Assembly: GCA_016873095.1 (NCBI GenBank)
Contig: VGYC01000027.1
Location: 1-50,479, forward strand
DNA: 50,479 nt
Direction: 5' to 3'
DNA from: Planctomycetota bacterium
GTDB lineage: Bacteria > Planctomycetota > Planctomycetia > Gemmatales > Gemmataceae
Below, piece after piece: positions 2,586-50,479 of this stretch (its first letter is position 1; every line of letters starts with the position of its first letter). The notes under the pieces are model-generated. The model was not told where the DNA came from and ran no database searches. It saw nothing but the letters and a program-made list of their open reading frames with translations. Position numbers and translations under genes: made by a program.

Positions 2586-2716
2586 GCTGGGCTCCTGTGT
2601 TTGCGGATTCCACCAGAGGAAGAATAGAAACGCGCGGGCAACTTGCGCGGCGATTCCGAGCGATTCCGATTGTTCGGAACCGTGGCGCTGACTAACCTGA
2701 TAACAGGAGGTTTAGA

Positions 2717-3043: not shown

Positions 3044-3120
3044 CCCTTAAGATCGCGATTGCGTGCTGCAGGAAAACCGCTTTCGGTTTTTGCTTCTGGT
3101 ATCAAGTTTCTTGATTATCC

Positions 3121-3885: not shown

Positions 3886-3923
3886 CAGGAATCAGAGGCG
3901 CTTGCAACCACCACCCTGACGCA

Positions 3924-4730: not shown

Positions 4731-4794
4731 CTGCAATTCTCCAGCTAGCAGCGTTCAGCCATCAGATTTCATCCGGTTGCGAGGGGAGCTAACG

Positions 4795-6015: not shown

Positions 6016-6201
6016 GAGATAACAATATCAAGCCGCGCCTGTGCTTGCAAAAGGGAAAATGACTGAAGGCGGCGCAGCCCAGAGACAGGCAAATTCTTCG
6101 ACTGCCGGTATTACTGCTTGCTCGCGGCGACTGCCGACCGTAGATTCATTCCGTGTCCGTTGCCACCCACCCGACGCATTCCTCCCAGCAGGGCGGCCTG
6201 C

Positions 6202-7452
6202 ATGAATCGCTTGCTCAGCAACCGCTGGTTTCAACTCTCGATCGGCATCGCCGGCATGGTGGCGGTCGCGAACTTTCAGTATGCCTGGACGCTGTTCGTG
6301 CGGCCGCTGGTGCAGGAACGCGGCTGGACACGAGTCGAGGTCGCCAATTCGCTCAGCATATTCTTCACGCTGGCCCAGACCTGGCTGGTGCCGTTCGAGG
6401 GCTACCTGGCGGACCGCATCGGACCGCGGCGTCTGGTCCTCTTTGGCGGCGCTGCCGTGGCGCTGGCCTGGGTTGTCAACGCCCACACGACCTCTCTGGG
6501 GGTGCTTTACGCGAGTCAGGTGTTGAGCGGTTGCGGGTCGGGCATTGTCTACGCCCTCAGCATGGGCAATGCCCTCAAGTGGTTTCCGGATCGCCGCGGT
6601 CTGGCGGCAGGCCTGACCGCCGCGGCCTTCGGCGCCGGATCCGCCGCCACCATTCTGCCGATCAAGTGGACCATCGATAGCGAAGGCTACCAGACGGCAT
6701 TTCTATGGTTCGGCCTGGCACAAGGATTGGTCGTCATGCTTGCCGGGCTGGGAATGCGTTTTCCGCGCGCCGACGAAATCCGGGCTCCGCTTCAGCCAAC
6801 GGTCTTGCAAACCGGCCGCGACTTCACGCCGCTGGAGATGCTCAGGACGCCAACCTTCTGGCTGGTGTATCTGATGATGACCGTGGGCGCCGTCCCTGGC
6901 TTGCTCATGCTGGTCCAGCTGGAACCGATGGCCCATGACTTCGGCATCGCGACGACGCCCGTTACCATCCTGTGGATCACGCAGGCGGCCTTGCCGTTCG
7001 CCATCGTTCTCGACCGCATCACCGGCGGGCTGACCCGGCCAGTGTTCGGCTGGATTTCGGACCACATCGGCCGCGAGCTGGCGATCTTTCTCGCCTTCTC
7101 TCTGGAAGGCGCCTCACTCCTGGCGCTCATCCTTTTCTACGCAGATCCAGTCATTTTCGTGCTGATGTCCGGGCTGGCGTTCTTTGGCTGGGGCGCCATC
7201 TTCAGCCTGTTCCCCGCCGTCAGCGGCGACATGTTCGGCGGCAAGTTTGCCACGACCAACTACGGCCTGCTCTACACGGCCAAGGGCACTGCCTCGCTGC
7301 TCGTGGCGCTGGCCAACTACATGCAGGCACGCACCGGCAACTGGGAGGGCGTCTTCGCCTTCATGATTGCCGCCGACTGGCTGGCGGCGCTGCTGGCGAT
7401 CCTGGTGCTGCGGCCGTTGCGCAGGCGGAAGGACGCAACTGAAGCAGCGTGA
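6202..7452 (+). CDS. MFS transporter, oxalate/formate antiporter (OFA)-like
   Basis: A 416-residue inner-membrane transporter with about 12 hydrophobic segments. The major facilitator signature between helices 2 and 3 is seen as GYLADRIGPRRLVL, repeated in degenerate form as GWISDHIGRELAIF in the second half. The arrangement FQYAWTLFVRPLVQERGW near the start and the glycine-rich SGCGSGIVYALSMGNALKWFPDRRGLAAG are typical of the OFA branch, which exchanges small carboxylates. The start ATG 6202 is chosen because it begins just before the first helix; only a weak purine stretch precedes it. An oxalyl-CoA-synthetase-like gene lies 1.2 kb away on the opposite strand, which makes oxalate a possible substrate, but this is inference. 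Confidence 0.82.
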   Translation: MNRLLSNRWFQLSIGIAGMVAVANFQYAWTLFVRPLVQERGWTRVEVANSLSIFFTLAQTWLVPFEGYLADRIGPRRLVLFGGAAVALAWVVNAHTTSLGVLYASQVLSGCGSGIVYALSMGNALKWFPDRRGLAAGLTAAAFGAGSAATILPIKWTIDSEGYQTAFLWFGLAQGLVVMLAGLGMRFPRADEIRAPLQPTVLQTGRDFTPLEMLRTPTFWLVYLMMTVGAVPGLLMLVQLEPMAHDFGIATTPVTILWITQAALPFAIVLDRITGGLTRPVFGWISDHIGRELAIFLAFSLEGASLLALILFYADPVIFVLMSGLAFFGWGAIFSLFPAVSGDMFGGKFATTNYGLLYTAKGTASLLVALANYMQARTGNWEGVFAFMIAADWLAALLAILVLRPLRRRKDATEAA

Positions 7453-7686
7453 GCAAGCGCCGGCATTCGGCGACACGTCGTTTCGTTCCGCTGCGCTTCG
7501 GTGTTAGGTGCCGGTCAAACGACCCACCCGCGAATTACTTACGGCACGAACTCGAGTGGTCGGCAAGTGGTCGGCCAAGTTGTCCGCGTGTCACCGTCTC
7601 GGTTTTTGGACAATAATACGCCGACCGAGCTTGACAACCCAAACGCGCTCGCCTCTCCCGGCGGGCGTTCCGGGGCCCGAAGAATC

Positions 7687-8190
7687 TCACGCTTCTTCAT
7701 TGCTTTTCATCAGCCCACTCCTTTCGGGGCACGTCGCCGTGGCCTTCGGATCATGGCGCACCGTACGCCTGATCGCCTGAATAGCGCAGTACACTGCCGC
7801 GATCGGGACGAGCAGCATCATGCCAAGTTGCGCGTCTTCGCTCAGCCAGTTCGGAGGAAAGAACAGGAAAGCCACAAACACGATAATGAGAATGTCCTGC
7901 AGAATGAGCAATACTCCGCGTAACCGAACGCTTGCAGGCAGCGGCGTTCGTCGCGTGACAATGAGCAGGCATGAGACCCAGAGCGCCCAGAAGACTGCTG
8001 GCATGATGGCGCAGGCGAACAGCGCTGCCGTCCACCACTTCACACCACCCGCCATGATGAGCAACAACGCCAGCAGCGAACAGATCGCAACCACAACGAG
8101 GCAGGCGACCGCCACGAGATTTCGTCCGGCCTTCGCGTGCCGCTCGCTATTTGCTGGTTGATCCGTGGACGGAACTTCCTCCCGGTTCAT
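7687..8190 (-). CDS. Hypothetical membrane protein, four helices
   Basis: A 167-residue protein with a polar N-terminus of about 22 residues and then four predicted transmembrane helices (about residues 24-48, 52-77, 88-107 and 120-140), ending in a polar tail. No catalytic motif is visible and I do not recognise the family. It starts 27 bases after the end of the next membrane-protein gene on the same strand, so the two probably share a transcript with the acyl-CoA synthetase. Its helix spacing resembles that neighbour, so the pair may be diverged paralogues. Confidence 0.6.
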   Translation of the reverse strand: MNREEVPSTDQPANSERHAKAGRNLVAVACLVVVAICSLLALLLIMAGGVKWWTAALFACAIMPAVFWALWVSCLLIVTRRTPLPASVRLRGVLLILQDILIIVFVAFLFFPPNWLSEDAQLGMMLLVPIAAVYCAIQAIRRTVRHDPKATATCPERSGLMKSNEEA

Positions 8191-8217
8191 GCCAACCTCG
8201 ATCGCAGTTCTTCCGCA

Positions 8218-8613
8218 TTACTTCGGCTCTGCCAAATCATCATCGCTCCGTCTGAGGAACCAAGCGACAACATGAAGCAGCGCGAGCAGAATGGCTCCGG
8301 ACAGAAGCATCCAGCCCGGAAGCGCTTGAAATACCGTCAGCAGAAGTAGGACATGAAGCAGCCCTTGCACGACAATGACAAATCGGTAACGCGGCACGAT
8401 TACTGCCGCGAGGGCATGGCACAGAGCGAGAAACGTCGCCGGGAGCACGATGCCCACCGACACGAGCAACACCTCCCATGAGGGCCGTTCGCCAACGCCT
8501 AGAAGTGCATAGCTGGTTGCCGCGACACACGGGACCAGAATGTAGACGATCCTGACAGGGACAATCCAGCGCGCTGGCATTTGCGCTCTCATCGCACAGG
8601 TCGCTCGTCTCAT
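8218..8613 (-). CDS. Hypothetical small membrane protein
   Basis: A 131-residue product with four hydrophobic segments (about residues 17-40, 47-72, 76-100 and 102-120) and no recognised domain. ATG 8613 overlaps the TGA of the acyl-CoA synthetase gene as ATGA, which suggests translational coupling, although internal ATGs (residues 8 or 12) could also serve. Function unknown. The coupling implies a membrane role tied to the synthetase transcript, but nothing in the sequence proves it. Confidence 0.6.
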   Translation of the reverse strand: MRRATCAMRAQMPARWIVPVRIVYILVPCVAATSYALLGVGERPSWEVLLVSVGIVLPATFLALCHALAAVIVPRYRFVIVVQGLLHVLLLLTVFQALPGWMLLSGAILLALLHVVAWFLRRSDDDLAEPK

Positions 8614-10121
8614 TTCTTGTCCGCGAACGCCGCCGCCATAAAGCGGCGTTGCACCTTACCGGTCGGCCCCTTGGGTAGCTCGCTCACCAGGTGGATGACC
8701 TTGGGGACCTTGAAATCGGCGAGGCGTTCGCCGCAATGGCTTTGCAGGTCGGCGACGGAAACATCCGCGCGTGCCACGACGACGGCGTGCACCTCCTCGC
8801 CATACTTGTCGTGCGGCGCGCCAAAGGCGGCGGCCTCGGCAACGGCCGGGTGGCTCAAAAGGGCCGCGTCCACCTCCAGCGGCGAGATCTTCTCGCCGCC
8901 GCGGTTGATGAGTTCCTTGATCCGCCCGATCAGCGTGAGATAACCGTCGGCGTCCTGGATGCCGCGGTCGCCAGTGCGGAACCAGCCGTTGGTGAACGCT
9001 GCGGCGTTGGCATCGGGGTTGTTGTGGTAGCCGTGCGTGACATTCTTGCCGCGGACGACGACCTCGCCTTGCGCGCCAACCGGCAGCAGGTTGCCGGCCT
9101 CGTCCATGATGGCCACATCGACGTTGGTCCCGCGCCCGACGCTGCCAGGCTTTCGAATCCCAGGCGGCAACGGATTGGACGTCATCTGATGCGCCGCCTC
9201 GGTCATGGCATAGGCTTCCAGCGTGGGCGCGCCGAAGCGGTCCTCGACCTGCTGCATGGTCGCCGGCGCCAACGCCGAACTGCACGAACGAATGAAGCGG
9301 AAGCCGGCCTGCCGCGGCGCCTCGTCGGCATCCGCGCGTGACAGGAGCACCTGATGGATGGTCGGCACGGCGGAGTACCACGTGACGCGCTGCTGCTTGA
9401 CGGCTGGCCAGAATTGTCCCGCACTGAAGCGCGGCGGAATCACCAGCGTGCTGCCCGCCCACAGCGACGATAGCGTCGCGCCGATCAAGCCATGCACGTG
9501 AAACAGCGGCATGACGACGAGACTGATATCGGCGGCCGTCAACTGATAATGACTCGCGATGTTCTGGATCGACGTCATCAGGTTGCCGTGTGTCAGCGGC
9601 ACGCCCTTGGGCCGGCTGGTCGTGCCGCTGGTGTGCAGGAACAGGGCGACATCGTCCACCTGCGGCGCGTCCGGCGACTTACCGGTGGATGCAGGGAGTT
9701 TCTCGCCCTGAAGACGCACCGCGCCCTTGCCGTCGCGATCCGCCTTCCAGAGCGGTAAACCCAGCGCCGCGGCGACATCGTGAATCGGGTGCGCTTCGGC
9801 CGGCGCGATCACGGCTCTCGTCCCCGCATCTTCCAGGTAAAAGCGAAACTCGTCCGCCTTGTATGCTTGATTCAACGGGGCGGCGACCAGGCGGGCGCGT
9901 GTCACCGCCAGAAAGCTGACGAGATTCTCCAGCCCGTTCGCAAGGACAATGGCCACCGCGTCGCCGGGTTGCAATCCCGTCTGCCGCAGCCGGGCCGCAA
10001 GCGACTCAACCTGATCCAGCAACGCGCTGTAAGTGGTTCGGCTGCCGCATTCCGGCAGGATCACCGCGACATGGGCGGCATCGCCCCGGCGGCACAGGTC
10101 AGCAAGCGTATATGTTGACAT
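8610..10121 (-). CDS. AMP-forming acyl-CoA synthetase, oxalyl-CoA synthetase-like
   Basis: A 503-residue ANL-superfamily ligase that activates a carboxylate with ATP and CoA. The P-loop TSGTTSRPKGVPLTH is near residue 160, YAMTEAAHQM is the A5 motif, GWFRTGDRG the A7 motif with its catalytic Asp, and PTGKVQRR near the C-terminus supplies the catalytic Lys. The stretch MPLFHVHGLIGATLSSLWAGS followed by RFSAGQFW and WYSAVPTIHQ is characteristic of the Pcs60/AAE3 oxalate-CoA ligase group. The start is set at ATG 10121 because the N-terminus then aligns with the family; the open frame continues upstream only through a tandem repeat. It is the first gene of a three-gene run with two small membrane proteins. 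Confidence 0.85.
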   Translation of the reverse strand: MSTYTLADLCRRGDAAHVAVILPECGSRTTYSALLDQVESLAARLRQTGLQPGDAVAIVLANGLENLVSFLAVTRARLVAAPLNQAYKADEFRFYLEDAGTRAVIAPAEAHPIHDVAAALGLPLWKADRDGKGAVRLQGEKLPASTGKSPDAPQVDDVALFLHTSGTTSRPKGVPLTHGNLMTSIQNIASHYQLTAADISLVVMPLFHVHGLIGATLSSLWAGSTLVIPPRFSAGQFWPAVKQQRVTWYSAVPTIHQVLLSRADADEAPRQAGFRFIRSCSSALAPATMQQVEDRFGAPTLEAYAMTEAAHQMTSNPLPPGIRKPGSVGRGTNVDVAIMDEAGNLLPVGAQGEVVVRGKNVTHGYHNNPDANAAAFTNGWFRTGDRGIQDADGYLTLIGRIKELINRGGEKISPLEVDAALLSHPAVAEAAAFGAPHDKYGEEVHAVVVARADVSVADLQSHCGERLADFKVPKVIHLVSELPKGPTGKVQRRFMAAAFADKK

Positions 10122-25351: not shown

Positions 25352-25564
25352 TCCGCTTTGCCTCTGCCCGACAAGATCCCGTGACCTTCAGGACACACAC
25401 CAAGTTGCCACTGGTTTTTCTCTTCGAGTGCACCTTCACGGTTCAATCTCACATCGCGATGAGTCAGTCGTTCCGGCTTGATCAGCTCGCCGTGTCGAGA
25501 TAGGATTCACGCATGGGGCGAAGGAATCTCGTGAGTTGTCCGCGCCGAGAAGTTGACAAGGATC

Positions 25565-27223
25565 ATGCCGATGGCCGCCGTCATTGACACTGCCGCCCAG
25601 GACCGCTGGGAGAAGGAAGTCGCGGCCGCGCCGGTGCGGCCGGAGCCGCCCTCAACTGTCAGCGGCGTGCCCATCGAGCCACTCTACACGCGGAACAGCC
25701 TCGACGGCTTCAATCCCGACACGGAACTTGGCTTTCCCGGTCAGTATCCATTTACGCGCGGCGTACATGCTACGATGTATCGCAGCCGGCTGTGGACCAT
25801 GCGACAGTTTGCCGGCTTCGGCACCGCCCGGCAGACCAACGAGCGCTTTCGCTTCTTGCTCGCCAAGGGGCAAACCGGGTTGAGCACGGCGTTTGATCTG
25901 CCCACGCTCATGGGGCTGGACAGCGACGATCCGCGCTCGCTGGGCGAGGTCGGCCGGCTCGGTGTCGCAGTCGATACGCTCGACGACATGCGCACGTTAT
26001 TCGACGGTATCGATCTCAACAACGTCTCCGTGTCGATGACCATCAATGCGCCGGCGGCGATCATCATGGCGTTTTTCCTGGCCAATGCCCAGGACCAGGG
26101 CGTGGACTGGAAGCAACTGCGTGGCACATTGCAAAACGATATCCTGAAGGAGTTTCATGCGCAGAATGAGTTCGTCTTTCCGCCGGAGCCGCACGTCCGG
26201 CTTGTCTGCGATGTCATCGAGTACTGCGCTCGCGAAGTGCCGCAGTGGAATCCGGTGTCGATAAGCGGCTACCACATCCGCGAGGCCGGCTCGACCGCGG
26301 TTCAGGAACTCGCGTTCACGCTGGCCGACGGCTTTCATTATATCGACACGTGCCTGGCACGCGGCATGGATATCGATGACTTTGCGCCGCGACTGAGCTT
26401 TTTCTTCAACTCACACAATGACATCTTCGAGGAGATTGCCAAGTACCGGGCCGCTCGCGTCCTCTGGGCCGAGACGCTGCGCAACAAGTACGGCGCCCGC
26501 AAGGAGTCATCTTGGAAGTTGCGCTTTCATGCGCAGACGGCCGGTTGCTCGTTGCAGGACAAGCAGCCGGAGGTGAATCTCATCCGCGTGGCCTACCAGG
26601 CGCTGGCGGCCGCGCTGGGCGGCTGCCAGTCGCTGCACACCAACAGCATGGACGAGACGCTGGCCCTGCCGTCGGAACATGCGGTCACGCTGGCGCTGCG
26701 GACCCAGCAGGTGCTGGCCCATGAGACCGGCGTCACCAACACGGTGGACCCGCTCGGTGGCAGCTATTTCATCGAAGCGCTCACTCGGCAGATGCAGCAG
26801 CAGGCCGGCGGTTATTTCGAGAAGATTGAGCAGCTGGGCGGTATGCTGGCGGCGTTGGAGAAGGGCTTTTTCCGGCGCGAGATCGCCGACGCTGCCTTCG
26901 CTTACCAGCGCGATGTGGACGCGCAGAAAAAGCTGATCGTCGGAGTCAACGCCTTCACGGAAGCGGAGCAGAAGCCGCTGGAAACCCTCGTCGTCGATGA
27001 GCAGGTGGAAGCGGAGCAGGTGGCATCGCTGGGCAAGCTGAAGTGGCAGCGCGACGCCGCCGAGGTGGCGTGCGTGTTGGCCGAGGTGCGCCGCGTGGCC
27101 GCCACTCGCGAAAACCTGATGCCCGCATTCCTGCAAGCCGCCCGCGCCCGCTGCGGCGTCGGCGAGATCATGAATGCCCTGGCGGACGTGTTTGGCAGGT
27201 ATTCTGGAGTGGCACGGTGGTAA
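25565..27223 (+). CDS. B12-dependent acyl-CoA mutase, large subunit (not canonical methylmalonyl-CoA mutase)
   Basis: A 552-residue adenosylcobalamin-dependent mutase large subunit: a TIM-barrel CoA-binding domain with the linker but no C-terminal B12 domain, which is encoded next door. Family blocks: [22 protein letters not shown] (about 65-86), [34 protein letters not shown] with catalytic His237, [13 protein letters not shown] and [16 protein letters not shown]. Aligned to methylmalonyl-CoA mutase, Tyr89 is replaced by His68 and Arg207 by Gln200; these bind the substrate carboxylate. Gln at the second position is seen in isobutyryl-CoA mutase. So a non-dicarboxylate acyl-CoA is the likely substrate. 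ATG 25565 is chosen, with AAGGA just upstream; ATG 25571 is an alternative. Confidence 0.9.
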
Positions 27224-27377
27224 GGGGCTGCGTCTCAGACCGATCGTGCAAGAACATGCAATCCCGGCTCGTAGCTTTTCAGTAAGTCAAGCTCGTCGCG
27301 ACGCCAAGCTCGAAGAATCGAGGCTGCTGAAAACCAGTTCATTGTCCTGAAACCACTGGCGCTGATCCGGAGGCATC

Positions 27378-27803
27378 ATGGCGGAGCATCTCGCCCAGAA
27401 TCGCGCTGCAAAACGAATTGTGCTCGCCAAGGTCGGGCTTGACGGTCACGACCGCGGCGTCAAGGTCGTGGCCCGGGCGCTGCGCGACGCCGGCTTTCAT
27501 GTCATCTACGCGGGGCTCTGGCAGACTCCGGAGGCCGTCGTTCGCGCCGTCGCTGACGAGGACGCCGACTGGGTTGGGCTCAGCATCCTGAGCGGGGCGC
27601 ACATGACCCTCGTGCCTCGCGTCCTGCGTCTCTTGAAGGAAACGGGCCTCGCGAATGTCGGCGTTCTGGTCGGTGGCATCATTCCCGAAGACGAAGTCCC
27701 GAAATTGCTTGAACTGGGCGTGGCACGCGTATTCGGCCCGGGCACGTCGATGCCGGAGATCGTGGAGTTCCTCAAGCAAAATAGCGGGGCACGCCATGAT
27801 TGA
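27378..27803 (+). CDS. B12-binding small subunit of acyl-CoA mutase
   Basis: A 141-residue cobalamin-binding domain. The motif DxHxxG is present as DGHDRG with His24 as the lower axial cobalt ligand, followed by GLSILSGAHMTLVPRVL and VGGIIPEDEVPKLLELGVARVFGPGTS, both typical of mutase B12 domains. It pairs with the large subunit 155 bases upstream to form the split mutase, as in IcmB, HcmB and archaeal methylmalonyl-CoA mutases. GGAGG sits five bases before ATG 27378. The 3' end overlaps the MeaB-type gene by eight bases. Confidence 0.93.
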   Translation: MAEHLAQNRAAKRIVLAKVGLDGHDRGVKVVARALRDAGFHVIYAGLWQTPEAVVRAVADEDADWVGLSILSGAHMTLVPRVLRLLKETGLANVGVLVGGIIPEDEVPKLLELGVARVFGPGTSMPEIVEFLKQNSGARHD

Positions 27804-28704
27804 GCGCCTCATCGAGCGTTTTCGCCACGGCGACCGGCTGGCACTAGCGCGCCTGATGAGCCTTGCCGCCCGCGGCGAACTGCCACGCGACACGCTGGGC
27901 GCCTTGCAGTCGAGCAAGCCGGCCCGAGTCGTCGCCATCACCGGCTCTGGCGGCGTAGGCAAGAGCTCTCTTGTCGGCAGACTCATCACGGTCGTTCGCG
28001 ACCAGGGACTCAAGGTTGCGGTGCTGGCCTGCGACCCGCAAAGTCCGCTCAGCGGCGGCGCGCTTCTGGGCGACCGCGTGCGCATGGCCGGCAAGCCGGA
28101 CGACGACGGCGTCTTCATCCGCAGCCTTGCTGCACTTTCGGGACAGAGCGCGCTGGCGGCGCATCTGGATACGATGATTCGTCTGTGCGAAGCCTTTGGC
28201 ATGGAGGTCGTCCTCATCGAGACTGCCGGCGCTGGACAGGGTGACACTGCCGTGCATGCGCTGGCCGATGTCGTTGTCCTGCTTCTCCAGCCGGAGACGG
28301 GAGACGATCTGCAGCGGGAAAAGGCAGGCGTTTTCGAGGTGGCCGACGTGCTTGTGGTACACAAGGCCGATATGCCTGGGGCCGAGCAGGCGTTCGCCCA
28401 GGTGCGTGCGGCCGCCGAATTGGCGACTCCTCCAGTGCCCGTCCTGAAAGCCAGTGCCCGCACCGGCGAAGGGCTTGCGGAACTCTGGCGCCTGGTAGCA
28501 GGCCGGCCATTGCGACGACAGGCCGACCAGGTCGACAAGGATCTGCTCGTCGCCATTCAGGAAGAGCTTGCCAGGCGCTTTGAGAGTGCTCTGGCTGGCG
28601 GCGTGAAGGGTGTTCGCGACCTCGTCTCTCGCTGGCGGCAGGGAAGCGTCTCCAGCCATGAAGCGGCAACCGCCGTACTCGACTTGCTTCTAAATGAGCC
28701 ATGA
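27796..28704 (+). CDS. MeaB/ArgK-family GTPase, mutase chaperone
   Basis: A 302-residue P-loop GTPase that loads cobalamin and protects the mutase from inactivation. P-loop GSGGVGKSS at about residues 50-58, then DPQSPLSGGALLGDRVRM (switch region), LIETAGAGQGD in place of the usual ETVGVGQSE, and VVHKADMPGA for guanine specificity (usually NKAD; here HKAD). The start ATG 27796 overlaps the small-subunit stop, implying coupled translation and a shared job. The altered G3 and G4 motifs, if real, may affect GTP use. It could be called MeaB, or MeaH if the mutase is of the hydroxyisobutyryl type. Confidence 0.9.
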   Translation: MIERLIERFRHGDRLALARLMSLAARGELPRDTLGALQSSKPARVVAITGSGGVGKSSLVGRLITVVRDQGLKVAVLACDPQSPLSGGALLGDRVRMAGKPDDDGVFIRSLAALSGQSALAAHLDTMIRLCEAFGMEVVLIETAGAGQGDTAVHALADVVVLLLQPETGDDLQREKAGVFEVADVLVVHKADMPGAEQAFAQVRAAAELATPPVPVLKASARTGEGLAELWRLVAGRPLRRQADQVDKDLLVAIQEELARRFESALAGGVKGVRDLVSRWRQGSVSSHEAATAVLDLLLNEP

Positions 28705-43010: not shown

Positions 43011-44057
43011 TCACTTGACAGCTGTCGGCAACTGGTAGCCTTCCTTGTTGAGTCCGATTCGATAGAGGCTCTTGCCGGCGGTGATGTACAGCGTCTTGCT
43101 TTCCGGTCCTCGACCGAACCCGACATTGGTGGGTATCTCCGTCTTGATGTACGCCAGTTCCTTGCCTGCGGGGGAATAGACGCAGATCCCCGGTCGTGTT
43201 GCGTCGCGGACCGCCACGTACAGGTTGCCTTCGGCGTCGCAGACCAGGCCGTCGGGCCCGTCTTGCGGCGCGTAATCGACCAGGACCTTGCGGAACTTGG
43301 CGGTGCCGTCGCCGGCCAGGTCATAGGCGAGCAGGGCCATGCGGCCCTTGTGCACGGGCGCCTCCTTCGGCAAACGGCCGATGCCGGTGGTGCCGTTGTC
43401 GTTACTGACGACGTACAGCGATTTCTGATCCGGCGACACAGTGACGCCGTTCGGCTTGCCGGCGTCGGTGATGATGCGGTGGATGGAGCCGTCAGGGTCG
43501 ATGCGGTAGACGGCCTGCACCGGCTGATCGATCGGCTCGTGGCCCAGGTAACGTGGGTCGCTGAAATAGATGCGGCCCTTCTCGTCGATGGTGATGTCGT
43601 TGGGCGAATTGAAGGGCCGGCCTTCGAAGAGCCCGGCGATGATGTAGCTCTTGCCCGTCTTCATGTCGGTGCGGATGACGCGCCGGCCGCCGTAGTCGGC
43701 TCCCTCGGCCACGATCATGTTGCCGGCCGCATCAAACTTGATGCCGTTGGACATGCCGCTCGGCGAACGAAAAATGGTCGTCTTCCTGGTCTTCGGATTG
43801 AACTTCCAGATGTGTCCCGCCTCGATCACGCCTTTGTTGTCCCTGGAAGCGTGCGAGAAGGTGATGTCGCTGAAGTAGACCATGCCGTCCAGCGCCACAG
43901 CCACTCCTTCGGTGAGCACGACGCCGCCGTCGAAGACTTTTTCCAGCTTGGCGCCGGCTGGTACGATGCCGTTTTTCTCCTGCGACGTGACCGCCGCGTG
44001 CGAGAACAGGAGAGCGATCAGGATGCCCAACATGGTGAACACCGACTTCCAGTTCAT
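43011..44057 (-). CDS. SMP-30/gluconolactonase-like exported protein
   Basis: A 348-residue beta-propeller. The signal peptide (MNWKSVFTMLGILIALLFSHAAVTSQ) is followed by repeated six-bladed segments: LTEGVAVALDGMVYFSD, GMSNGIKFDAAGNMIVAEG, FNSPNDITIDEKGRIYFSDPRY, KPNGVTVSPDQKSLYVV, and DGPDGLVCDAEGNLYVA. The Glu, Asn and Asp residues in these phrases are the calcium ligands of SMP-30/lactonase family enzymes. Planctomycetes carry many paralogues, assumed to open sugar lactones. ATG 44057 is chosen over ATG 44075 because AAGGAG lies eight bases upstream. Confidence 0.87.
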   Translation of the reverse strand: MNWKSVFTMLGILIALLFSHAAVTSQEKNGIVPAGAKLEKVFDGGVVLTEGVAVALDGMVYFSDITFSHASRDNKGVIEAGHIWKFNPKTRKTTIFRSPSGMSNGIKFDAAGNMIVAEGADYGGRRVIRTDMKTGKSYIIAGLFEGRPFNSPNDITIDEKGRIYFSDPRYLGHEPIDQPVQAVYRIDPDGSIHRIITDAGKPNGVTVSPDQKSLYVVSNDNGTTGIGRLPKEAPVHKGRMALLAYDLAGDGTAKFRKVLVDYAPQDGPDGLVCDAEGNLYVAVRDATRPGICVYSPAGKELAYIKTEIPTNVGFGRGPESKTLYITAGKSLYRIGLNKEGYQLPTAVK

Positions 44058-44219
44058 GCGAAACGCTCCTTTCATGGCAGTTCGCTCGGATTCGCAGCCG
44101 GCGATGCAACCTGTCTGGTGTCGTTGCGCGCCGCGGTTTCCGCTATCTAAGGTAGTCTCTCATGCCGCGCACGCAAGGAGATTTTCGGAACCGCTCGACC
44201 GGCGAGTCCAGAAAGCAAG

Positions 44220-45257
44220 TCATTCCTTCAAGTCCATGAGGAATGCGGCCAGCAGGCCCGTGGCAATGGCAGCCAAGATGCCCAGGAACCAGCGGGCATA
44301 GCCCCAGCCGACCACGAACAGCAAGGCGCCGGCCAAGGCAAAAACCACAAAGCCGATGAACTTGTCCTTGTCCTCGATGGCGCGTCGCCGGTTCACGAAC
44401 TTGCGGTAATAGATCACGAACAGGAGCAAATGTGCGGCTGCGTAGACAAGGATGCTGGCCAGCAAGGGCAGGAAGCGCAGAGCCCAGCCGAATAAGCCGT
44501 GGCTCAACAAGCCGGGAGCGGGCTCGGCTTCTTCGGGCGTGGGTTCGCCCTTTTTCGGCTCTGGATCGGGCGACTTTGTCGGTTCCTTGCCGGATGGATT
44601 CAGACTCTGCAAGACCTTGCGATTCTGCTCGATGCGTGAGATGAGGCTCTGGTCGCCGCCGTGAAACTTCGCAGCTTGGTCCAGGGCATCGCGGGCATCG
44701 TCGAGCAGCCCTTTCTTGCCGTAGGCGACAGCCAAGCCGATCCAGGCCTTGGCATAGCGCGGCTGCAGCGCGATCGCCTCCTTGTACGACTGGATGGCGC
44801 CATCAAGCTTATTCTTCTCATCGAGCAACCAGCCGCGGTTGAACAGGGCGGCCGCGAACAGTTTGACTTTCATTGCGCCCTGGGACCGCAGCAGGTCCAG
44901 CGCCTTGGCGTTGTTGGCGAGGGCGTCATCAGTCGAATTGCGGCCTTGCTTGGCGACCCCGAGGTTGAGCAAGCTGCCGGCTCGTTTGGGGGCGATTGCA
45001 ATGACGAACTGCAGATGTTTTTCCGCTTCGTCGAAGTTCTTGGCCATGATCAGGCAGACGGCAAGGTTATTGCGGGCGTCCAGGTCGCCAGGTGTTCTCT
45101 GAACAATTCTTTCAAGCATTGGCCGCGCCTCGGCGAACCGGCCGCTCTTCATCAAGCCGACCGCCTCGTGAAAGTCGCCGGAGGATTGCGCCACGCTGGC
45201 TTGGCAAAACGCCAGCGCGATGCCAAGCGTGCCCGCCAAAAGCAAGAATCGCTGCAT
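44220..45257 (-). CDS. TPR membrane protein at the end of the radical SAM cluster
   Basis: A 345-residue protein. Residues 1-23 are a signal peptide (ending CQASVAQS), 28-205 contain four or more tetratricopeptide repeats (AKAWIGLAVAYGKKGLLDDARDALDQAA is the clearest), 205-250 are a Pro/Glu/Lys-rich linker, and 250-345 hold two or three membrane helices. ATG 45257 lies five bases after the radical SAM stop, with its GGAG inside the upstream coding end, so translation is coupled. TPR proteins often act as scaffolds for peptide export or for enzyme complexes; that role here is inference. It is the last gene of the run; a 162-base spacer follows. Confidence 0.75.
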   Translation of the reverse strand: MQRFLLLAGTLGIALAFCQASVAQSSGDFHEAVGLMKSGRFAEARPMLERIVQRTPGDLDARNNLAVCLIMAKNFDEAEKHLQFVIAIAPKRAGSLLNLGVAKQGRNSTDDALANNAKALDLLRSQGAMKVKLFAAALFNRGWLLDEKNKLDGAIQSYKEAIALQPRYAKAWIGLAVAYGKKGLLDDARDALDQAAKFHGGDQSLISRIEQNRKVLQSLNPSGKEPTKSPDPEPKKGEPTPEEAEPAPGLLSHGLFGWALRFLPLLASILVYAAAHLLLFVIYYRKFVNRRRAIEDKDKFIGFVVFALAGALLFVVGWGYARWFLGILAAIATGLLAAFLMDLKE

Positions 45258-45262
45258 CGCGT

Positions 45263-46819
45263 TCACTCCGCGCATAATAGCGGCTGCCGGCGATAGGGCG
45301 AGGGCGGCAACTCGGGCACGTCTTCCAGCTGCTTCCGGCACCAATCGCGTAACTCGCGCACCAAAGCGAAAAGGTCGAGTTGTGGATCTTCCTCGAGGGC
45401 GTCGAGTGTCCGCACTGCCACCTCGTAAACGACATCGTCAAATCGATCGAGAGTGTGCTGGCAAAGATCGTGCCGCGGACTCTTCGACTGCATCAGCTTG
45501 CTGAGAATACTCCACTTGGCCATCAGCGACTCGTACCAGCGCGGGAAATGTGGCCAGATGACGCGATCGAAGACGGCCTTAATCGACGCCACTCGCGGAT
45601 CGGCGAATTGATAGCGATAGCAGCCATCCGGTTCACGATAAGCAACGCCCTCGGACACGAGCGGTTCCAGCAGTGGCGTCCCCGGCGATAGTTGCAGGAA
45701 ATTCGTAATGGTATGGATGTTCAGATGCCCGATGTCATGCAGGAATTCGACTGATTCACGAACATTTTCCAGTGTCGTCCAGGGATTGAACATGATGAAG
45801 CCGACATGCGTGTAGACGTCCAGTTCCTTCAGCAACGCAAGGGTGCGCAACACCAGGTCGCGGGACTGGCCCTTCTTGAACGCCCGCCGCGTTGACTGGT
45901 CAACTGCTTCGATGCCAAAGAAGACCATTTGCAGTCCGGCGTCCTTGAGTGGGCGAAAGGTGTCGTGATCAATCCATTCGGCCCGACATTGCAGCGAAAA
46001 GCCGACATTGAGTCGGCGCCGCTTCAGTTCTGCGGCCAGATCGCGGGCGCGCGGCTGGCCAAGCTTGCGGTTGCCGATGAAATCGTCGTCGACGAAATTG
46101 ACCTGCTCGATGCCGTAATCGCTCACCAGCCGATCGATCTCGTCGGCGATGTTCTTCGAACTGCGAAATCGCCAGGGCCGATCGGGATCGAGATTGAAGC
46201 GATGGACGGCACAGAACGTGCACTTGCCCTGGCAGCCCCGACTGGTGGCCAGCGGCGGCATCAAGCCTTGCTCCAGCGTCAACGGCAACGTGTCGCGCAG
46301 CGGAAAGGGGAGGCTGTCGAGATCATCAGCGGGCACGGCCGGCGCATTCATGTGCAGGCGGCCTGCCTCCAGCTGGCACAGTCCGGCGATGGAAGTGTAA
46401 TCGCGGCCTGATTGCAGGCACGTTGCCAGCTCCAGAAGAGGCTTCTCGCCCTCGAAGCGCAGCACTGTATCCAGATGCGGGCACATGCGAAACACCCAGT
46501 CGGGAGCGAAGCTGGCCAGGTTGCCGCCCATCGTGAGATGGGCCTTGGGTAGCGCGTAGCGAAGCTTCTTGGCAAGGTGGATGGCGCTTTCCAGACCATC
46601 CTCACTCATCAGAGACATGCCAACCAGTTCCGGATCCGTGCCGGCAACGCGTTCGAGGACCTGGTCGTCGCTGAGCTTTTCGATCTCCGCGTCGACGACA
46701 TGGACCTCGTGACCGTGCCGGCGCAGCATCCCGCCGACATAGCCCAACCCCAGACATTCCTGGGTTCCTTCGTCGTAACCGGCAACTCGATAAACCGGTC
46801 GAATCAATGTGCAACGCAT
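45263..46819 (-). CDS. Cobalamin-binding radical SAM protein
   Basis: A 518-residue enzyme. Residues 1-140 are a B12-binding fold (GYVGGMLRRHGHEVHVVDAE, MGGNLASFAPDWVF), of the base-off type since the DxHxxG motif is absent. The 4Fe-4S binding motif is SRGCQGKCTFCAVHRF with Cys196, Cys200 and Cys203. The radical SAM barrel follows (VNFVDDDFIGN, FFGIEAVDQSTRRAFKKGQS), and a C-terminal extension of about 110 residues ends the protein. Class B radical SAM methylases add methyl to unactivated carbon or phosphorus, e.g. in RiPP and antibiotic pathways. ATG 46819 has AGGA eight bases upstream. A C-methyltransferase of the adjacent Cys-rich peptide is the most attractive guess; horizontal or vertical oxidative roles remain possible. 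Confidence 0.9.
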   Translation of the reverse strand: MRCTLIRPVYRVAGYDEGTQECLGLGYVGGMLRRHGHEVHVVDAEIEKLSDDQVLERVAGTDPELVGMSLMSEDGLESAIHLAKKLRYALPKAHLTMGGNLASFAPDWVFRMCPHLDTVLRFEGEKPLLELATCLQSGRDYTSIAGLCQLEAGRLHMNAPAVPADDLDSLPFPLRDTLPLTLEQGLMPPLATSRGCQGKCTFCAVHRFNLDPDRPWRFRSSKNIADEIDRLVSDYGIEQVNFVDDDFIGNRKLGQPRARDLAAELKRRRLNVGFSLQCRAEWIDHDTFRPLKDAGLQMVFFGIEAVDQSTRRAFKKGQSRDLVLRTLALLKELDVYTHVGFIMFNPWTTLENVRESVEFLHDIGHLNIHTITNFLQLSPGTPLLEPLVSEGVAYREPDGCYRYQFADPRVASIKAVFDRVIWPHFPRWYESLMAKWSILSKLMQSKSPRHDLCQHTLDRFDDVVYEVAVRTLDALEEDPQLDLFALVRELRDWCRKQLEDVPELPPSPYRRQPLLCAE

Positions 46820-46872
46820 GTCCAGTCCTTTGCGTAGAGCCGAGCAGGTTGGCGGTTTGCCCCGAGCGGCTT

Positions 46873-47118
46873 TCAGTTTTTCGCCTTTGGTACGGCCTCG
46901 TACTGGCGCTCGAAGACGGAGATGGCGGCCGGTTCGGTTTCGCGCACGTTTTCCATCTTGCGAATTTCCTGATACGTGGACTTCGGTGCCTTGTTCTGCG
47001 TCGGCGGCGACGTCCCTTTGTCGTCGCCACCGCAGCCGCGTGCAATTGCGATGATGATGCCGATCACAACGAGGAGCAGGCAACCGCAACCGGCGGCTCC
47101 CTCGGATTGCTGGCTCAT
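46873..47118 (-). CDS. 81-residue membrane peptide in the radical SAM cluster
   Basis: A small protein with one transmembrane helix (about residues 12-28) that opens with the Cys-X-Cys pair Cys11-Gly-Cys13 and ends in a charged cytosolic or periplasmic tail (EIRKMENVRETEPAAISVFERQYEAVP). ATG 47118 overlaps the stop of the SPASM protein as ATGA, so it is translationally coupled. It could be a membrane anchor, an export or immunity factor, or a second substrate since it carries a CxC pair. I do not recognise the family. Confidence 0.6.
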   Translation of the reverse strand: MSQQSEGAAGCGCLLLVVIGIIIAIARGCGGDDKGTSPPTQNKAPKSTYQEIRKMENVRETEPAAISVFERQYEAVPKAKN

Positions 47119-48455
47119 GGCGTCACGTCCTCAGGGACAACACATCCGTCCAGAGCGACCAACACGCGTTCCATGCTCGCGGGATGAACGAAGCGATACC
47201 CCTCCGCCAGCGCCTGCCGCACGCGCCCCATCACGGATTCGAATGCGACGCGGGACGGATGACAGTAGGACGCGCCCATCGGTCGGGCCATCATGAAGCT
47301 CGGGCAGCGGCGACACAGCGGTCTCGCCGAGCCGGTAGGACATTCGGCAAAAAACGTGTGCTCACCGGCTAGGCCGCGCCAGGTATCGATCATGTCGAGC
47401 AACGGTAGTGGCACATGCCCGTTGCCGGTCAAATTCGGCGGCTCCGTACCGATTTTCAGAAAGGAACAGCCCCACGCCTGGCCCGAAGCGGACACGACCG
47501 AGATCTGACAATCGCCCGAGCAAGCCTCCTCGAAGGCGAGATACTCGGCGGCCAGCGGCGTGAAGAAGCTCTCGTTCATCAGCTCGGCGAACTGCTCAGA
47601 GGTAAGCCGTAACTCGGCCAGCGTTGCATCGAGGCGGCGGTCGCTCGGGTAAATGATGGTTGCTACCGTGAAGGAATTGTCCGTGAGGTTGAAGAGGAAG
47701 TTGACCAACTCGAAGCGGTACTCAAAGTTCATGCGCGTCAATGCCGCAGTGGACACAATGGCGATGCCAAGCTCGCGACAGAGTTCGACGATGCGCACCA
47801 ATCGGGCGAATGAACCGGGGATGCCGGTGAAGGCGTCGTGCAGAGCGGCGTTGTGTCCAAAGAAGTCGGACTTGACGATGACGCGCCGGCCCAAGCGTTG
47901 TGCCAGCCGATCCCGGGTCGATGAATCGTCAGGGTCCAGTCCGCCACCGTTGACCAGCAAGCGCAGGGTCGTGTCCGGCGCCCGTTCGTGAAGATAGTCG
48001 AGCAGATCCCAGAGATGCGGATAAAGAAAGATGTCGCCGCCGGTGATGGAGATCTCGGCGCTTGCAGCGGCGAGGAGGCGATCGGCGGCTTGCCAGACCG
48101 CGGCACGGGTTGGCGTCGCTAGCGAATGCCTGGCCGGCCGCAACGTTTGGAAGCAATGCCGACAGGCGTACTCGCACAGGTAGTTGATCTCGAGGTTAGC
48201 TTCGCGGGCATCATTGTGGCGGCGAATGGCCCGCGCCGCATGGTAGACATCAACGTGAAACTGCCCGTTCGCCCAGGCCCGCTCGTCAGATTCTAGGTCG
48301 TTGACTGCAAGCTCTCCGGTCGCAGGTGCATCGGTTGTGAGGACGCCGTGATAATCGAGGCCCGGCTCGTACAGCAGCCAGCGCGCCGCGTCCTTGTCCG
48401 GCTGCCACATGACGCCCGGCTTGACTCGCTCCAAAATCGGTGACGGCAATGGCAC
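47115..48455 (-). CDS. Radical SAM/SPASM-like peptide maturase (second)
   Basis: A 446-residue enzyme. The radical SAM motif is NYLCEYACRHCF with Cys94, Cys98 and Cys101, followed by ISITGGDIFLYP (GGE-type motif, here GGD). The C-terminus has Cys312, 316, 330, 372, 381, 384 and 398, a SPASM/twitch-like set for extra 4Fe-4S clusters, typical of peptide-modifying radical SAM enzymes. The N-terminal 70 residues may hold a peptide-recognition domain. The start is GTG 48455, because AGGAG lies five bases before it; it follows the Cys-rich peptide gene by 16 bases. Likely forms thioether or C-C crosslinks in that peptide, which is inferred from context. Confidence 0.85.
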   Translation of the reverse strand: MPLPSPILERVKPGVMWQPDKDAARWLLYEPGLDYHGVLTTDAPATGELAVNDLESDERAWANGQFHVDVYHAARAIRRHNDAREANLEINYLCEYACRHCFQTLRPARHSLATPTRAAVWQAADRLLAAASAEISITGGDIFLYPHLWDLLDYLHERAPDTTLRLLVNGGGLDPDDSSTRDRLAQRLGRRVIVKSDFFGHNAALHDAFTGIPGSFARLVRIVELCRELGIAIVSTAALTRMNFEYRFELVNFLFNLTDNSFTVATIIYPSDRRLDATLAELRLTSEQFAELMNESFFTPLAAEYLAFEEACSGDCQISVVSASGQAWGCSFLKIGTEPPNLTGNGHVPLPLLDMIDTWRGLAGEHTFFAECPTGSARPLCRRCPSFMMARPMGASYCHPSRVAFESVMGRVRQALAEGYRFVHPASMERVLVALDGCVVPEDVTP

Positions 48456-48460
48456 GCATG

Positions 48461-48465
48461 CTCCT
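48461..48465 (-). promoter_or_regulatory. AGGAG ribosome binding site for the GTG-start SPASM gene
   Basis: On the minus strand AGGAG ends five bases before GTG 48455. It lies in the 16-base gap after the Cys-rich peptide stop and decides the start of the downstream gene against the longer open frame. Confidence 0.6.
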
Positions 48466-48471
48466 AATGTA

Positions 48472-48858
48472 TCAATGAGCTCGCACCGGCACACAGCGGC
48501 AAACGCGGCCGCCGCCGCCGCCCGAGGAATGCCTGTTGCACGAGCAAACCGACTGGCAGGTGCAGGTCCGCAGCGGATCGCACGAACACACCATCACCGT
48601 GTCGCATGAGCAGGCGCGGACGGTCTGGCAGGTGCAGCGACTGACGGTATCGCAACGGCAGCGCGAGCCGCCGGAGAGCACCGTGTTGCAGGTACACACC
48701 GTATCGCAACGGCAGACGATCTCGACGTCGTCGCGCTGCTGCGTCTCCTTCTCGTCAATGTGAATTTCGAGGTCTGGGCGCACGAAGGCAAACACCCGCG
48801 GCGCTTTGCCCTGGCTGTCGTTCTTCTTGGGCCGAAAATCGTTGTCATCTTGTGGCAT
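48472..48858 (-). CDS. Cys-rich CxC-repeat peptide, candidate RiPP precursor
   Basis: A 128-residue peptide. Residues 1-48 are a charged leader (MPQDDNDF..., with VFAFVRPDLEIHIDEKE as a possible recognition segment), with no signal peptide. Residues 49-122 hold 18 Cys in nine Cys-X-Cys pairs, at 49, 55, 67, 75, 83, 91, 99, 105 and 120. Pairs 67 to 99 are exactly eight residues apart: CRCDTVSR, CTCQTVRA, CSCDTVMV, CSCDPLRT; the first two are CRCDTV and CTCNTV. Consensus CxC(D/N/Q)TVxx. A Gly-rich gap (GGGGG) precedes the last pair. ATG 48858 overlaps the upstream radical SAM stop by 14 bases. Between two peptide-type radical SAM enzymes it is best read as their substrate. I know no named family with this repeat. 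Confidence 0.78.
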   Translation of the reverse strand: MPQDDNDFRPKKNDSQGKAPRVFAFVRPDLEIHIDEKETQQRDDVEIVCRCDTVCTCNTVLSGGSRCRCDTVSRCTCQTVRACSCDTVMVCSCDPLRTCTCQSVCSCNRHSSGGGGGRVCRCVPVRAH

Positions 48859-50332
48859 GGAGCAATCCAATCTGGACGAGGGGCTGCGGAGCGTGCGGCT
48901 CCTGGATCGGAACCGGCTCGATAGGCTCCGCAGGACCCAAGGGGATGAGCGCTGAATCGCTCATGGCCTTGATCTGCATCATCACGGTACTGTTCTGCTC
49001 CAACCGGCGGACGAGCTGGTCACGGGTCAGCTCCTGATTGATAAGGCAGCGGGCCGCCTTGAGCCGATCCCGAGGCCGGTCGTCCGAGGTCATGTTCTTG
49101 GCGATGCAATCGCCGGCGCAGTGCCATTTACAAAAACAGTCCTGGCACTCGGGCCGCTCGCGAACGGTGTGGCCTGCCAGTGTCTGCAACTTGGCTTGGT
49201 CCACCGTGAATACCCCCGTACTGGCGTCACGCCCGCCATAAAAAAACTTGTCCGCCAGGTGATCATCCGGATGGCAGACTTCGAAGCACGACGTCAGGAG
49301 TCCTTCCGGAGTGACATTGAAGCTGCCCTCGGGAACGCCGCAGAACGTGTCGGTTACCGTATCGAGCCGAGCTCCCGAGTAGTACAACTCGAGGCCGTAT
49401 TGCCGGGCGACTCTTTCCGCCTCGCGATAATTCTCGATGAAGGCCCAGGCTTGTGGGGCGGCCAGGCCCTTGGCATGTGCCCGCCCGTGGCTGAAGAGCG
49501 GCTCCAGGTGAATCGTGCTCGGCGAATAGCGTTTGAGGAGGTAGGCGACAATGTCGGCCAAGCGCAGCACCGTCTCCTCGGTGACCGTGAGTCGGACGCC
49601 GTAGCGAGCTGCATGGCTATCGAGGTGCCGCAGCGTGGCCTCGACGGTTTCGGCGGAACCGGCGCCGGTCATCGTGGGCCGTTGTCGATCCTGCGCCCAA
49701 GCCGGACCATCATAAGAGATCGAAAAATCGTGAATATGCCTCGCCACCCAATCTACCTTCCACGATGGCAAGACGCCGTTGGTCGCCAGGTTGAGAGCGA
49801 CTTTCAAGCCGTGTCGCTTGGCCAGCTCTTCGGCCCGCAAGGCACTCGCAGTGAGCGTGTCCCAGGCGAGAGTCGGCTCGCCGCCACCATGGTAGGAGAC
49901 GCGGAACTCTTGCTGGCCCAGTTCCAGTGTATTGCGCACCACCAGTTCCACGGCAGCCAGCGCGGTAGCTCTGTCCAGCGAGCCCTTGTAGTCGCCGGCT
50001 GACGCGTAACAATAGCTGCAGCGCAGATTGCAGGCGTTTGTCAAGAACACGGTCACTTCGGTCGGCTTCCAGTCACCACGCCTCTGAAAATTTGGCGGCT
50101 GATCTTCGGGCCCATTGACGGCTCCCGATTCAATCAGGAGTTGCAGGGCGTCCATGTTGGCGCCGGTGGCGCCGGGAAGCGTGCCGTCGCGCAATGACGC
50201 CACCATGTCCACCATGTCCTGGTTGGCCAGCACCACAATTTGCGTGAGCGGCGAGTACAGTATGTACGTGTCTTGCTGGTACGGGATGGCGAAAAACTCG
50301 GTGCTCAGCCGGTAGGCTGTGTAGTGTTTCAT
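48845..50332 (-). CDS. Radical SAM/SPASM peptide maturase (first)
   Basis: A 495-residue enzyme. Residues 1-85 form a domain that resembles the peptide-binding N-termini of maturases (HYTAYRLSTEFFAIPY ... VVLANQDMVDMV). The radical SAM motif is TNACNLRCSYCYASAG with Cys101, Cys105, Cys108; then YHGGGEPTLAW. The SPASM domain has Cys331, 349, 353, 396, 399, 401, 405, 409 and 429, enough for two auxiliary 4Fe-4S clusters. The C-terminal tail is Pro-rich and its last codons overlap the precursor start. ATG 50332 is chosen although its ribosome binding site is weak; GTG 50344 is an alternative. It is the first gene of the run. Predicted to modify the CxC peptide. Confidence 0.9.
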   Translation of the reverse strand: MKHYTAYRLSTEFFAIPYQQDTYILYSPLTQIVVLANQDMVDMVASLRDGTLPGATGANMDALQLLIESGAVNGPEDQPPNFQRRGDWKPTEVTVFLTNACNLRCSYCYASAGDYKGSLDRATALAAVELVVRNTLELGQQEFRVSYHGGGEPTLAWDTLTASALRAEELAKRHGLKVALNLATNGVLPSWKVDWVARHIHDFSISYDGPAWAQDRQRPTMTGAGSAETVEATLRHLDSHAARYGVRLTVTEETVLRLADIVAYLLKRYSPSTIHLEPLFSHGRAHAKGLAAPQAWAFIENYREAERVARQYGLELYYSGARLDTVTDTFCGVPEGSFNVTPEGLLTSCFEVCHPDDHLADKFFYGGRDASTGVFTVDQAKLQTLAGHTVRERPECQDCFCKWHCAGDCIAKNMTSDDRPRDRLKAARCLINQELTRDQLVRRLEQNSTVMMQIKAMSDSALIPLGPAEPIEPVPIQEPHAPQPLVQIGLLHATR

Positions 50333-50412
50333 CCCAACTGGCACATCGGCTAAGGTAGGCGATGGTTCTCTCCACGGGTAGGAAAAACCAAAACCCTCAG
50401 AAGGAGAGAAGC

Positions 50413-50479
50413 ATGAACCAGGACCGGCGTCGGAAGTGGAGCTCGGCGGACAAGCTGCGGATCGTGCTGGCGGGGATGC
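50413..50479 (+). mobile_element. Transposase start, cut by the window end
   Basis: The frame from ATG 50413 has AAGGAG eight bases upstream and reads MNQDRRRKWSSADKLRIVLAGM before the window ends. RRKWSxxxKLRIVL is the helix-turn-helix start of IS3-type OrfA transposases. It is divergent from the radical SAM/SPASM gene, with 81 bases between. An insertion sequence therefore borders the putative RiPP cluster; its terminal inverted repeat would lie at about 50345-50400 but cannot be proven from one end. Confidence 0.75.

Follow-up and report, generated by a model that had tools for sequence, protein, structure and literature searches.

A six-gene row around a B12-binding radical SAM enzyme

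What is the substrate of a cobalamin-binding radical SAM (rSAM) enzyme that is encoded next to a small cysteine-rich peptide and two further radical SAM enzymes, and which reaction does it perform? The question is raised by a window of 50,479 bases (the whole stretch of DNA that was analysed), which is the entire contig C27 of a planctomycete genome of 8.36 Mb that is 95.5% complete. Six genes form a row on the minus strand of the window, from position 50344 down to 44220. In order, they encode a SPASM-type radical SAM enzyme (rSAM1), a peptide with CxC repeats, a second radical SAM enzyme (rSAM2), a small membrane protein, the B12-binding radical SAM (B12-rSAM) enzyme and a TPR protein. The genes overlap or almost abut, the exception being a gap of 53 bases (46820–46872) between the membrane-protein gene (46873–47118) and the B12-rSAM gene. 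Both this spacing and the direct run of the B12-rSAM gene into the TPR gene are as described in the first-pass annotation: the last bases of the former overlap or abut the first bases of the latter (44220–45275, minus strand; ATG at 45275 or 45257). The TPR protein carries hydrophobic stretches at its N- and C-termini, and its ortholog (39–43% identity) occupies the same place in a second planctomycete locus, L007, described below. The next gene (43011–44075), which encodes an SMP-30-like protein, is absent from the L007 row and was excluded from the row. No protease or transporter gene lies within the row, nor was an MNIO or dehydratase gene seen there.

The source genome uses cobalamin: it encodes a MetH activation domain that scores 411.2 bits. 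In line with this, the window itself contains, by eye, an ORF resembling methylmalonyl-CoA mutase and, after it, a MeaB-like ORF (25553–28704). No MetH activation domain was found in G406, the genome that carries L007, which is 64% complete.

Domains and family of the B12-rSAM enzyme

The B12-rSAM enzyme (P0001; 45263–46819, minus strand) is 518 residues long when read from its ATG. Two Pfam domains score above their cut-offs, B12-binding (PF02310, residues 22–131, 69.1 bits against 32.1) and Radical_SAM (PF04055, residues 192–360, 71.6 bits against 29.5), which bears out the initial identification of both the gene and its motifs. The cobalamin-binding Rossmann domain (46427–46756, minus strand) aligns with MetH and other corrinoid proteins in a structure search (Z of about 11–14), and a motif check finds the His-ligand motif DxHxxG in neither this enzyme nor its L007 ortholog. 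The CX3CX2C cluster motif, CQGKCTFC at residues 196–203 (46211–46234, minus strand), follows in the radical SAM domain, and its cysteines C196, C200 and C203 are invariant in an alignment of 17 sequences. Judged by these sequence traits, i.e. an N-terminal Rossmann domain ahead of the radical SAM domain, the CX3CX2C motif and the missing His-ligand motif (predicted base-off cobalamin), the protein belongs to the class 1 cobalamin-rSAM enzymes.

Within that class, the enzyme passes no curated NCBIfam family cut-off. Its best profile is BchE (123.3 bits against a cut-off of 481.35), followed by HpnJ (113.4 against 577.6) and HpnR (111.8 against 650). The ladderane-type B12-rSAM profile (96.1 against 360), ApyD (94.3 against 750), BzaD (88.9 against 450) and TIGR03975, the RiPP maturation radical SAM C-methyltransferase (74.6 against 281.85), also stay under their cut-offs.

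The row is conserved in a second planctomycete

A scan with six exact peptide patterns over genome_contigs, in which 84,980 species are represented by a single genome apiece, yielded a single ortholog of the B12-rSAM enzyme and one distant homolog (L008, 28% identity). The ortholog lies in L007 (Planctomycetota, contig JACPRC010000147.1, the same contig as G406:C111), and G406 belongs to another class of the phylum. All six genes are found there in identical order, with identities of 67, 61, 53, 39, 67 and 39% in row order, and the B12-rSAM gene overlaps its neighbours on either side. The third codon position is the most diverged in all six gene pairs. The preserved order combined with this pattern of divergence implies, at the level of sequence, that the row is not a chance arrangement. 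The proposed coupling of the enzyme to a peptide cluster is thereby strengthened. Orthologs in lipid or housekeeping contexts were sought, and the sole true ortholog found (67%) sits in a peptide context. In terms of co-occurrence, the enzyme and the CxC peptide are together in both known cassettes, so that the support for their coupling comes from two cases (n = 2). Overall, we regard it as likely that the peptide of the row is the substrate to which the B12-rSAM enzyme is coupled.

The broad character of the best profiles (BchE, HpnJ and HpnR) would suit an ordinary housekeeping gene or a degenerate BchE/HpnJ-like gene that became linked to a peptide in the source genome only. This explanation is very improbable and is largely refuted by L007: the linkage recurs in a second genome, where the protein retains 67–68% identity, an open frame and the conserved motifs, and each of the three profile cut-offs is missed by more than 350 bits.

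The cassette is rare. At ortholog level, the B12-rSAM enzyme occurs in 2 of 392 genomes of the phylum, with seven more matches at E values of 1e-51 to 1e-53. The source genome is the only one of 95 in its own family at E ≤ 1e-40 and the only one of 397 in its own class at 1e-60, and G406 is the only one of 23 in its class; these samples of genomes overlap. rSAM2 is equally rare (2 of 392 phylum genomes at 1e-15). A search for the peptide within the order gave matches in 4 of 102 genomes at E ≤ 0.01, namely the source genome and three weak ones (0.001 to 0.004). The 3.2-kb loci around the weak matches (L010–L012) contain no match to P0001, P0002 or P0004–P0007 at 1e-3; in L010 the sole match is to the peptide. 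A peptide profile run against 194 phylum genomes, among which G406 is evidently not included, found the source genome only. Viral contigs searched with queries A1, A4 and A2 gave no relative.

Upstream of rSAM1, the L007 locus carries an ORF with a twin-arginine-like start (P0014). The window contig ends at the equivalent position, and the absence of such an ORF there is uninformative. At this contig end, the plus strand carries the first part of an ORF that resembles a transposase, by eye of the IS3 type (50413–50479).

The CxC peptide and the small membrane protein

The peptide (48472–48858, minus strand) is 128 residues long from the ATG at 48858, a TTG at 48870 being also possible. Its cysteine core (CRCDTV CTCNTV ... 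CRCVPVRAH; 48475–48714, minus strand) is devoid of Phe, Tyr and Trp. All 18 cysteines belong to nine CxC pairs, and the 16 cysteines of the L007 peptide similarly form eight pairs. In 20,000 shuffles, the window peptide gave a mean of 2.4 pairs and a maximum of 8, compared to 9 observed, and the L007 peptide gave a mean of 1.9 and a maximum of 7, compared to 8 observed. The units of the window peptide are CRCDTV, CTCNTV, CRCDTV, CTCQTV, CSCDTV, CSCDPL, CTCQSV, CSCNRH and CRCVPV; 7 of these 9 have Val as their sixth residue, as do 7 of 8 units in L007.

The two peptides are 61–65% identical and share an N-terminal AFVxPDLExHID motif and a terminal RVCRCVPVRAH. Divergence of the peptide gene by codon position is 0.31, 0.21 and 0.42, and because the third position diverges most, the gene is apparently under selection at the protein level. 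The window peptide matches no NCBIfam or Pfam family, and PHROGs contains nothing for either CxC peptide. Small size, a conserved N-terminal part, a repeat core, a conserved unit and the adjacent modifying enzymes are the features of a RiPP precursor, and the peptide would on this basis be classed as one. Trp methylation and biaryl coupling were rejected as reactions on the core because it contains no aromatic residue.

The membrane protein (46873–47118, minus strand) is 81 residues long and displays a CGC motif just ahead of its hydrophobic stretch. Its L007 ortholog is 37–39% identical and retains the CGC. It might serve as an anchor, or the maturases might modify it as a second substrate.

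Partner enzymes rSAM1 and rSAM2

The first-pass annotation listed two SPASM maturases in the row, and this description holds fully for rSAM1 and approximately for rSAM2. The gene of rSAM1 (48845–50344, minus strand) starts with an ATG at 50332 or a GTG at 50344 and overlaps with that of the peptide. Its product contains a CX3CX2C motif and all cysteines of the SPASM pattern, in the order CX17C, CX2CX5CX3C and one final Cys. Among curated profiles, PapB scores highest for rSAM1, with 118.9 bits under a cut-off of 340, and among solved chains the closest in sequence is 5wgg (CteB; 63.3 bits). The second enzyme, rSAM2 (47115–48494, minus strand; GTG at 48494 or ATG at 48410), has a CX3CX2C motif and a partial SPASM-like cysteine pattern. 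Its best profile is a weak match to HxsC (48.4 bits against 267.9), and that of its L007 ortholog is GeoRSP (53.9 against 400).

Relatives of rSAM1 and of the B12-rSAM enzyme in other loci

An rSAM1 profile finds seven of 392 phylum genomes at 1e-30. Small Cys-rich, CxC-bearing ORFs adjoin the rSAM1 homologs in two of five other planctomycete loci, at L046:9036–9359 (CPCQCDCQC) and L045:7008–7361 (CGCNPVCGCNDNDGCC); in L044, L047 and L048 the rSAM1-like enzymes are found without a CxC tract. Among plasmids, the rSAM1 search matched 83 records, and CxC tracts are present in both loci that were opened (L059 and L060). In L059, a Chlorohelix plasmid (NZ_CP128402.1), an rSAM1 homolog (33%) follows a protein that has a twin-arginine-like start and a C-terminal CxC tail. 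The stretch 1770–8819 of this locus contains three radical SAM genes and two exported-looking proteins with twin-arginine-like starts and CxC-bearing tails. A sequence at these protein starts, KPQVFAVSKK, is loosely like APRVFAFVRP of the window peptide. L059 may represent radical SAM modification of the tails of exported proteins. In L060, a Caballeronia plasmid, an rSAM1 homolog (29%) precedes a twin-arginine-type protein (6176–6775) that carries CSCNKESGCACVGHERCVC directly behind its signal. Incidental CxC tracts occur too, five of them in a background of about 241 kb that leaves out the window peptide, so the link between rSAM1-like enzymes and CxC tracts is suggestive only. Neither the L059 nor the L060 stretch contains a match to the B12-rSAM enzyme, and this enzyme is therefore not needed for the handling of CxC sequences in general.

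Homologs of the B12-rSAM enzyme at 25–31% identity sit in other, non-peptide contexts. By eye, five of the seven lower matches in the phylum (L026 and L028–L031) adjoin a methyltransferase and a gene resembling ThiC; L027 is interrupted by a contig end and L025 has no clear context. These contexts lend some weight to the idea that the enzyme of the row acts on a small molecule or a lipid instead of the peptide, being in the row by chance or making a molecule to which the peptide product is joined. We consider this unlikely. The gene order is kept in two distant genomes, the L007 gene overlaps both of its neighbours, and neither the window row nor the L007 row has lipid or cofactor genes. Furthermore, in a tree of 17 sequences, the enzyme and its ortholog form a clade of their own (100/100) on a long branch (1.25 changes per column). 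As far as can be read from these sequences, the broad B12-rSAM family appears to serve several pathways, and only the close orthologs appear to be tied to the CxC peptide.

The conserved B12-rSAM, ThiC-like and methyltransferase arrangement of L026 and L028–L031 is present in several planctomycete families, and L028, the locus scanned for BzaD, gave no match at 1e-25. In L045, a B12-rSAM homolog (27%) lies about 4.5 kb from the rSAM1 homolog with its Cys-rich peptide. This nearness is taken as coincidence because the same pair of B12-rSAM enzyme and methyltransferase recurs in L028, L030 and L031 without an adjoining Cys-rich peptide. A Burkholderia stagnalis plasmid (L049:2618–9410) carries three tandem-like B12-rSAM genes, an insulinase-family gene and a 55-residue ORF, and looks like another B12-rSAM peptide pathway.

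Structure models and the C-terminal region

Among solved chains, OxsB is the closest in sequence (E 4.2e-16 over residues 26–361), and it is not a methyltransferase (PMC13331322, in part). An AlphaFold model of the B12-rSAM enzyme built on three sequences reached a mean pLDDT of 61 and a pTM of 0.48, which is a low to moderate quality. The best structure matches of this weak model are all cobalamin-rSAM enzymes: OxsB (5ul3; Z 18.3, 440 aligned residues, rmsd 11.1) is at the top, followed by TsrM (6wtf; Z 17.7, 318 aligned, rmsd 9.7), TokK (7kdx; Z 16.6, 342 aligned, rmsd 11.0) and CysS (9n1c; Z 15.1, 324 aligned, rmsd 10.3). In a HMMER alignment, Met71, which is kept in the L007 ortholog, corresponds to OxsB Asn186, which lies beneath the cobalt and whose lower-face counterparts are Arg69 in TsrM and Trp76 in TokK (PMC13331322, in part). 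Met71 differs from all three, of which only the OxsB position was aligned here.

The C-terminal region (residues 392–518; 45266–45646, minus strand) is predicted to consist of a hairpin and helices (models with pLDDT of 61 and 63). It had been singled out at first as an unusual extension of about 110 residues, a view that we have dropped. Beyond alignment column 392, the enzyme has 126 residues and its ortholog 103, and 16 aligned relatives (the ortholog included) have 67–181; as a rule, class 1 cobalamin-rSAM enzymes end in a helical domain (PMC13331322, in part). In the structure prediction proposed for this region at the outset, the tail modelled alone has four predicted helices (pLDDT 63). 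The search with this model places the OxsB tail (residues 590–724) fifth (Z 5.8 over 90 aligned residues, rmsd 3.1) amid unrelated helical proteins, and a Foldseek search with the C-terminal domain alone returned nothing under E 1. According to these models, the tail is most likely the normal helical domain of class 1 enzymes.

Proposed function

On balance, we slightly favour a role in which the class 1 B12-rSAM enzyme is dedicated to the CxC peptide of its operon, most likely as a methylase of an aliphatic carbon, and in which the product is held at the membrane. In such a pathway, the peptide would be the substrate of all three radical SAM enzymes. rSAM1 and rSAM2 would recognise the conserved sequence AFVxPDLExHID in its N-terminal part and form C–S links from the paired cysteines. 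The B12-rSAM enzyme would further alter the same core, most probably by methylating an unactivated aliphatic carbon, and the first candidate site is the Val that ends most CxC[D/N/Q/E][T/S/A]V units. The modified peptide would then be retained by the 81-residue membrane protein and the TPR protein; membrane retention is suggested because the row contains no protease or transporter gene. A B12-rSAM enzyme, PoyC, is reportedly able to methylate the C-beta of Val.

Given the coupling to the peptide, methylation is put at somewhat over an even chance, and Val as its site ranks lower still. The C-methylation role implied by the first-pass annotation has lost ground in that the nearest structure, OxsB, is not a methyltransferase and the best profile, BchE, is that of a cyclase, both matches being far below family level. 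Also counting against methylation are the low TIGR03975 score given above and the identity of Met71, which is unlike the lower-face residues of OxsB, TsrM and TokK.

Alternatively, the B12-rSAM enzyme might help to form a C–S bond. More broadly, it could act on the CxC peptide as a cross-linker (by C–S thioether or C–C bonds) and not as a methyltransferase, which would make all three radical SAM enzymes of the row cross-linking. The non-methylating nearest relatives and a substrate packed with cysteines fit such a role, and there is precedent in the class: thioether formation is catalysed by the cobalamin-rSAM enzyme ThnL (PMC13331322, in part), and the cross-linking of aromatic side chains by PbsB (PMC12257519, in part). 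However, coupling of the PbsB type is impossible in a core without aromatic residues, two radical SAM enzymes with SPASM-type clusters are already at hand for C–S chemistry, and the class is generally regarded as one of methyltransferases (PMC13331322, in part). Cross-linking by the B12-rSAM enzyme is thus a tentative alternative to the methylation of the peptide that we prefer.

The reactions of class 1 B12 enzymes are hard to predict from sequence. Here, the near-identical CxC[D/N/Q]TV units and the aromatic-free core mean that mass shifts would be assignable to few residue types. These two properties open the reaction of an uncharacterised B12-rSAM subfamily to direct testing.

Comparison with known systems

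It is unusual for a peptide operon to encode three radical SAM enzymes. New radical SAM peptide pathways, including ones with Asp-Cys motifs and one whose cluster encodes 3 to 5 radical SAM enzymes, have been described (PMC9062424, in part), and the CxC row is not among the pathways in the part of that text covered. In open-licence full text, no description was found of an ensemble that joins a poly-CxC peptide to two unlike radical SAM enzymes, a class 1 B12-rSAM enzyme, a TPR protein and a membrane protein with a CGC motif. The parts, like the multi-rSAM RiPP pathway as such, are of known kinds. The conserved row points to an undescribed chemical remodelling of a peptide and adds a candidate peptide-modification pathway to Planctomycetota. 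More speculatively, it may represent a new RiPP class in which three radical SAM enzymes, one of them B12-dependent, produce a densely sulfur-linked, C-methylated chain at the membrane. It would be a free-peptide version of a wider CxC-tail system, such as that of L059, with the B12 enzyme as a planctomycete addition; we hold this for possible at best.

Of the systems to which the row can be compared, the His-Xaa-Ser system also pairs two unlike radical SAM enzymes with a peptide of short spaced repeats, rSAM1 resembling HxsB and rSAM2 resembling HxsC. Both scores are well under the cut-offs (79.5 against 370 bits for HxsB, and the HxsC value given above), CxC replaces HxS, and a B12-rSAM enzyme is added. 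No row protein matches HxsA or HxsD, and neither the source genome nor G406 contains an HxsC above cut-off. A true HxS system was rejected on these scores and on the lack of an HxS-repeat peptide.

The PapB/SCIFF-type maturases of ranthipeptides are similar in that they include the best profile (PapB) and the closest chain (5wgg) of rSAM1 and act next to a Cys-rich substrate. They differ in that rSAM1 scores below the PapB cut-off and the row has an extra second radical SAM enzyme and a B12-rSAM enzyme. PapB substrates have CX3D spacing. This spacing was looked for and rejected, being absent from the row peptide, which has CxC[D/N/Q/E] instead.

With OxsB, TokK, TsrM and CysS, the B12-rSAM enzyme shares an N-terminal Rossmann domain without a His-ligand motif, a central radical SAM domain and, most likely, a C-terminal helical region, but it is only about 16–18% identical to them in the structure alignments and its putative substrate is a peptide. 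Compared to the B12-rSAM enzymes of RiPP pathways (TIGR03975, ApyD, PoyC, PbsB), it has the same domain order and likewise belongs to a peptide operon, but it scores below the cut-offs of the profiles and is accompanied by two further SPASM-type radical SAM enzymes and a poly-CxC peptide.
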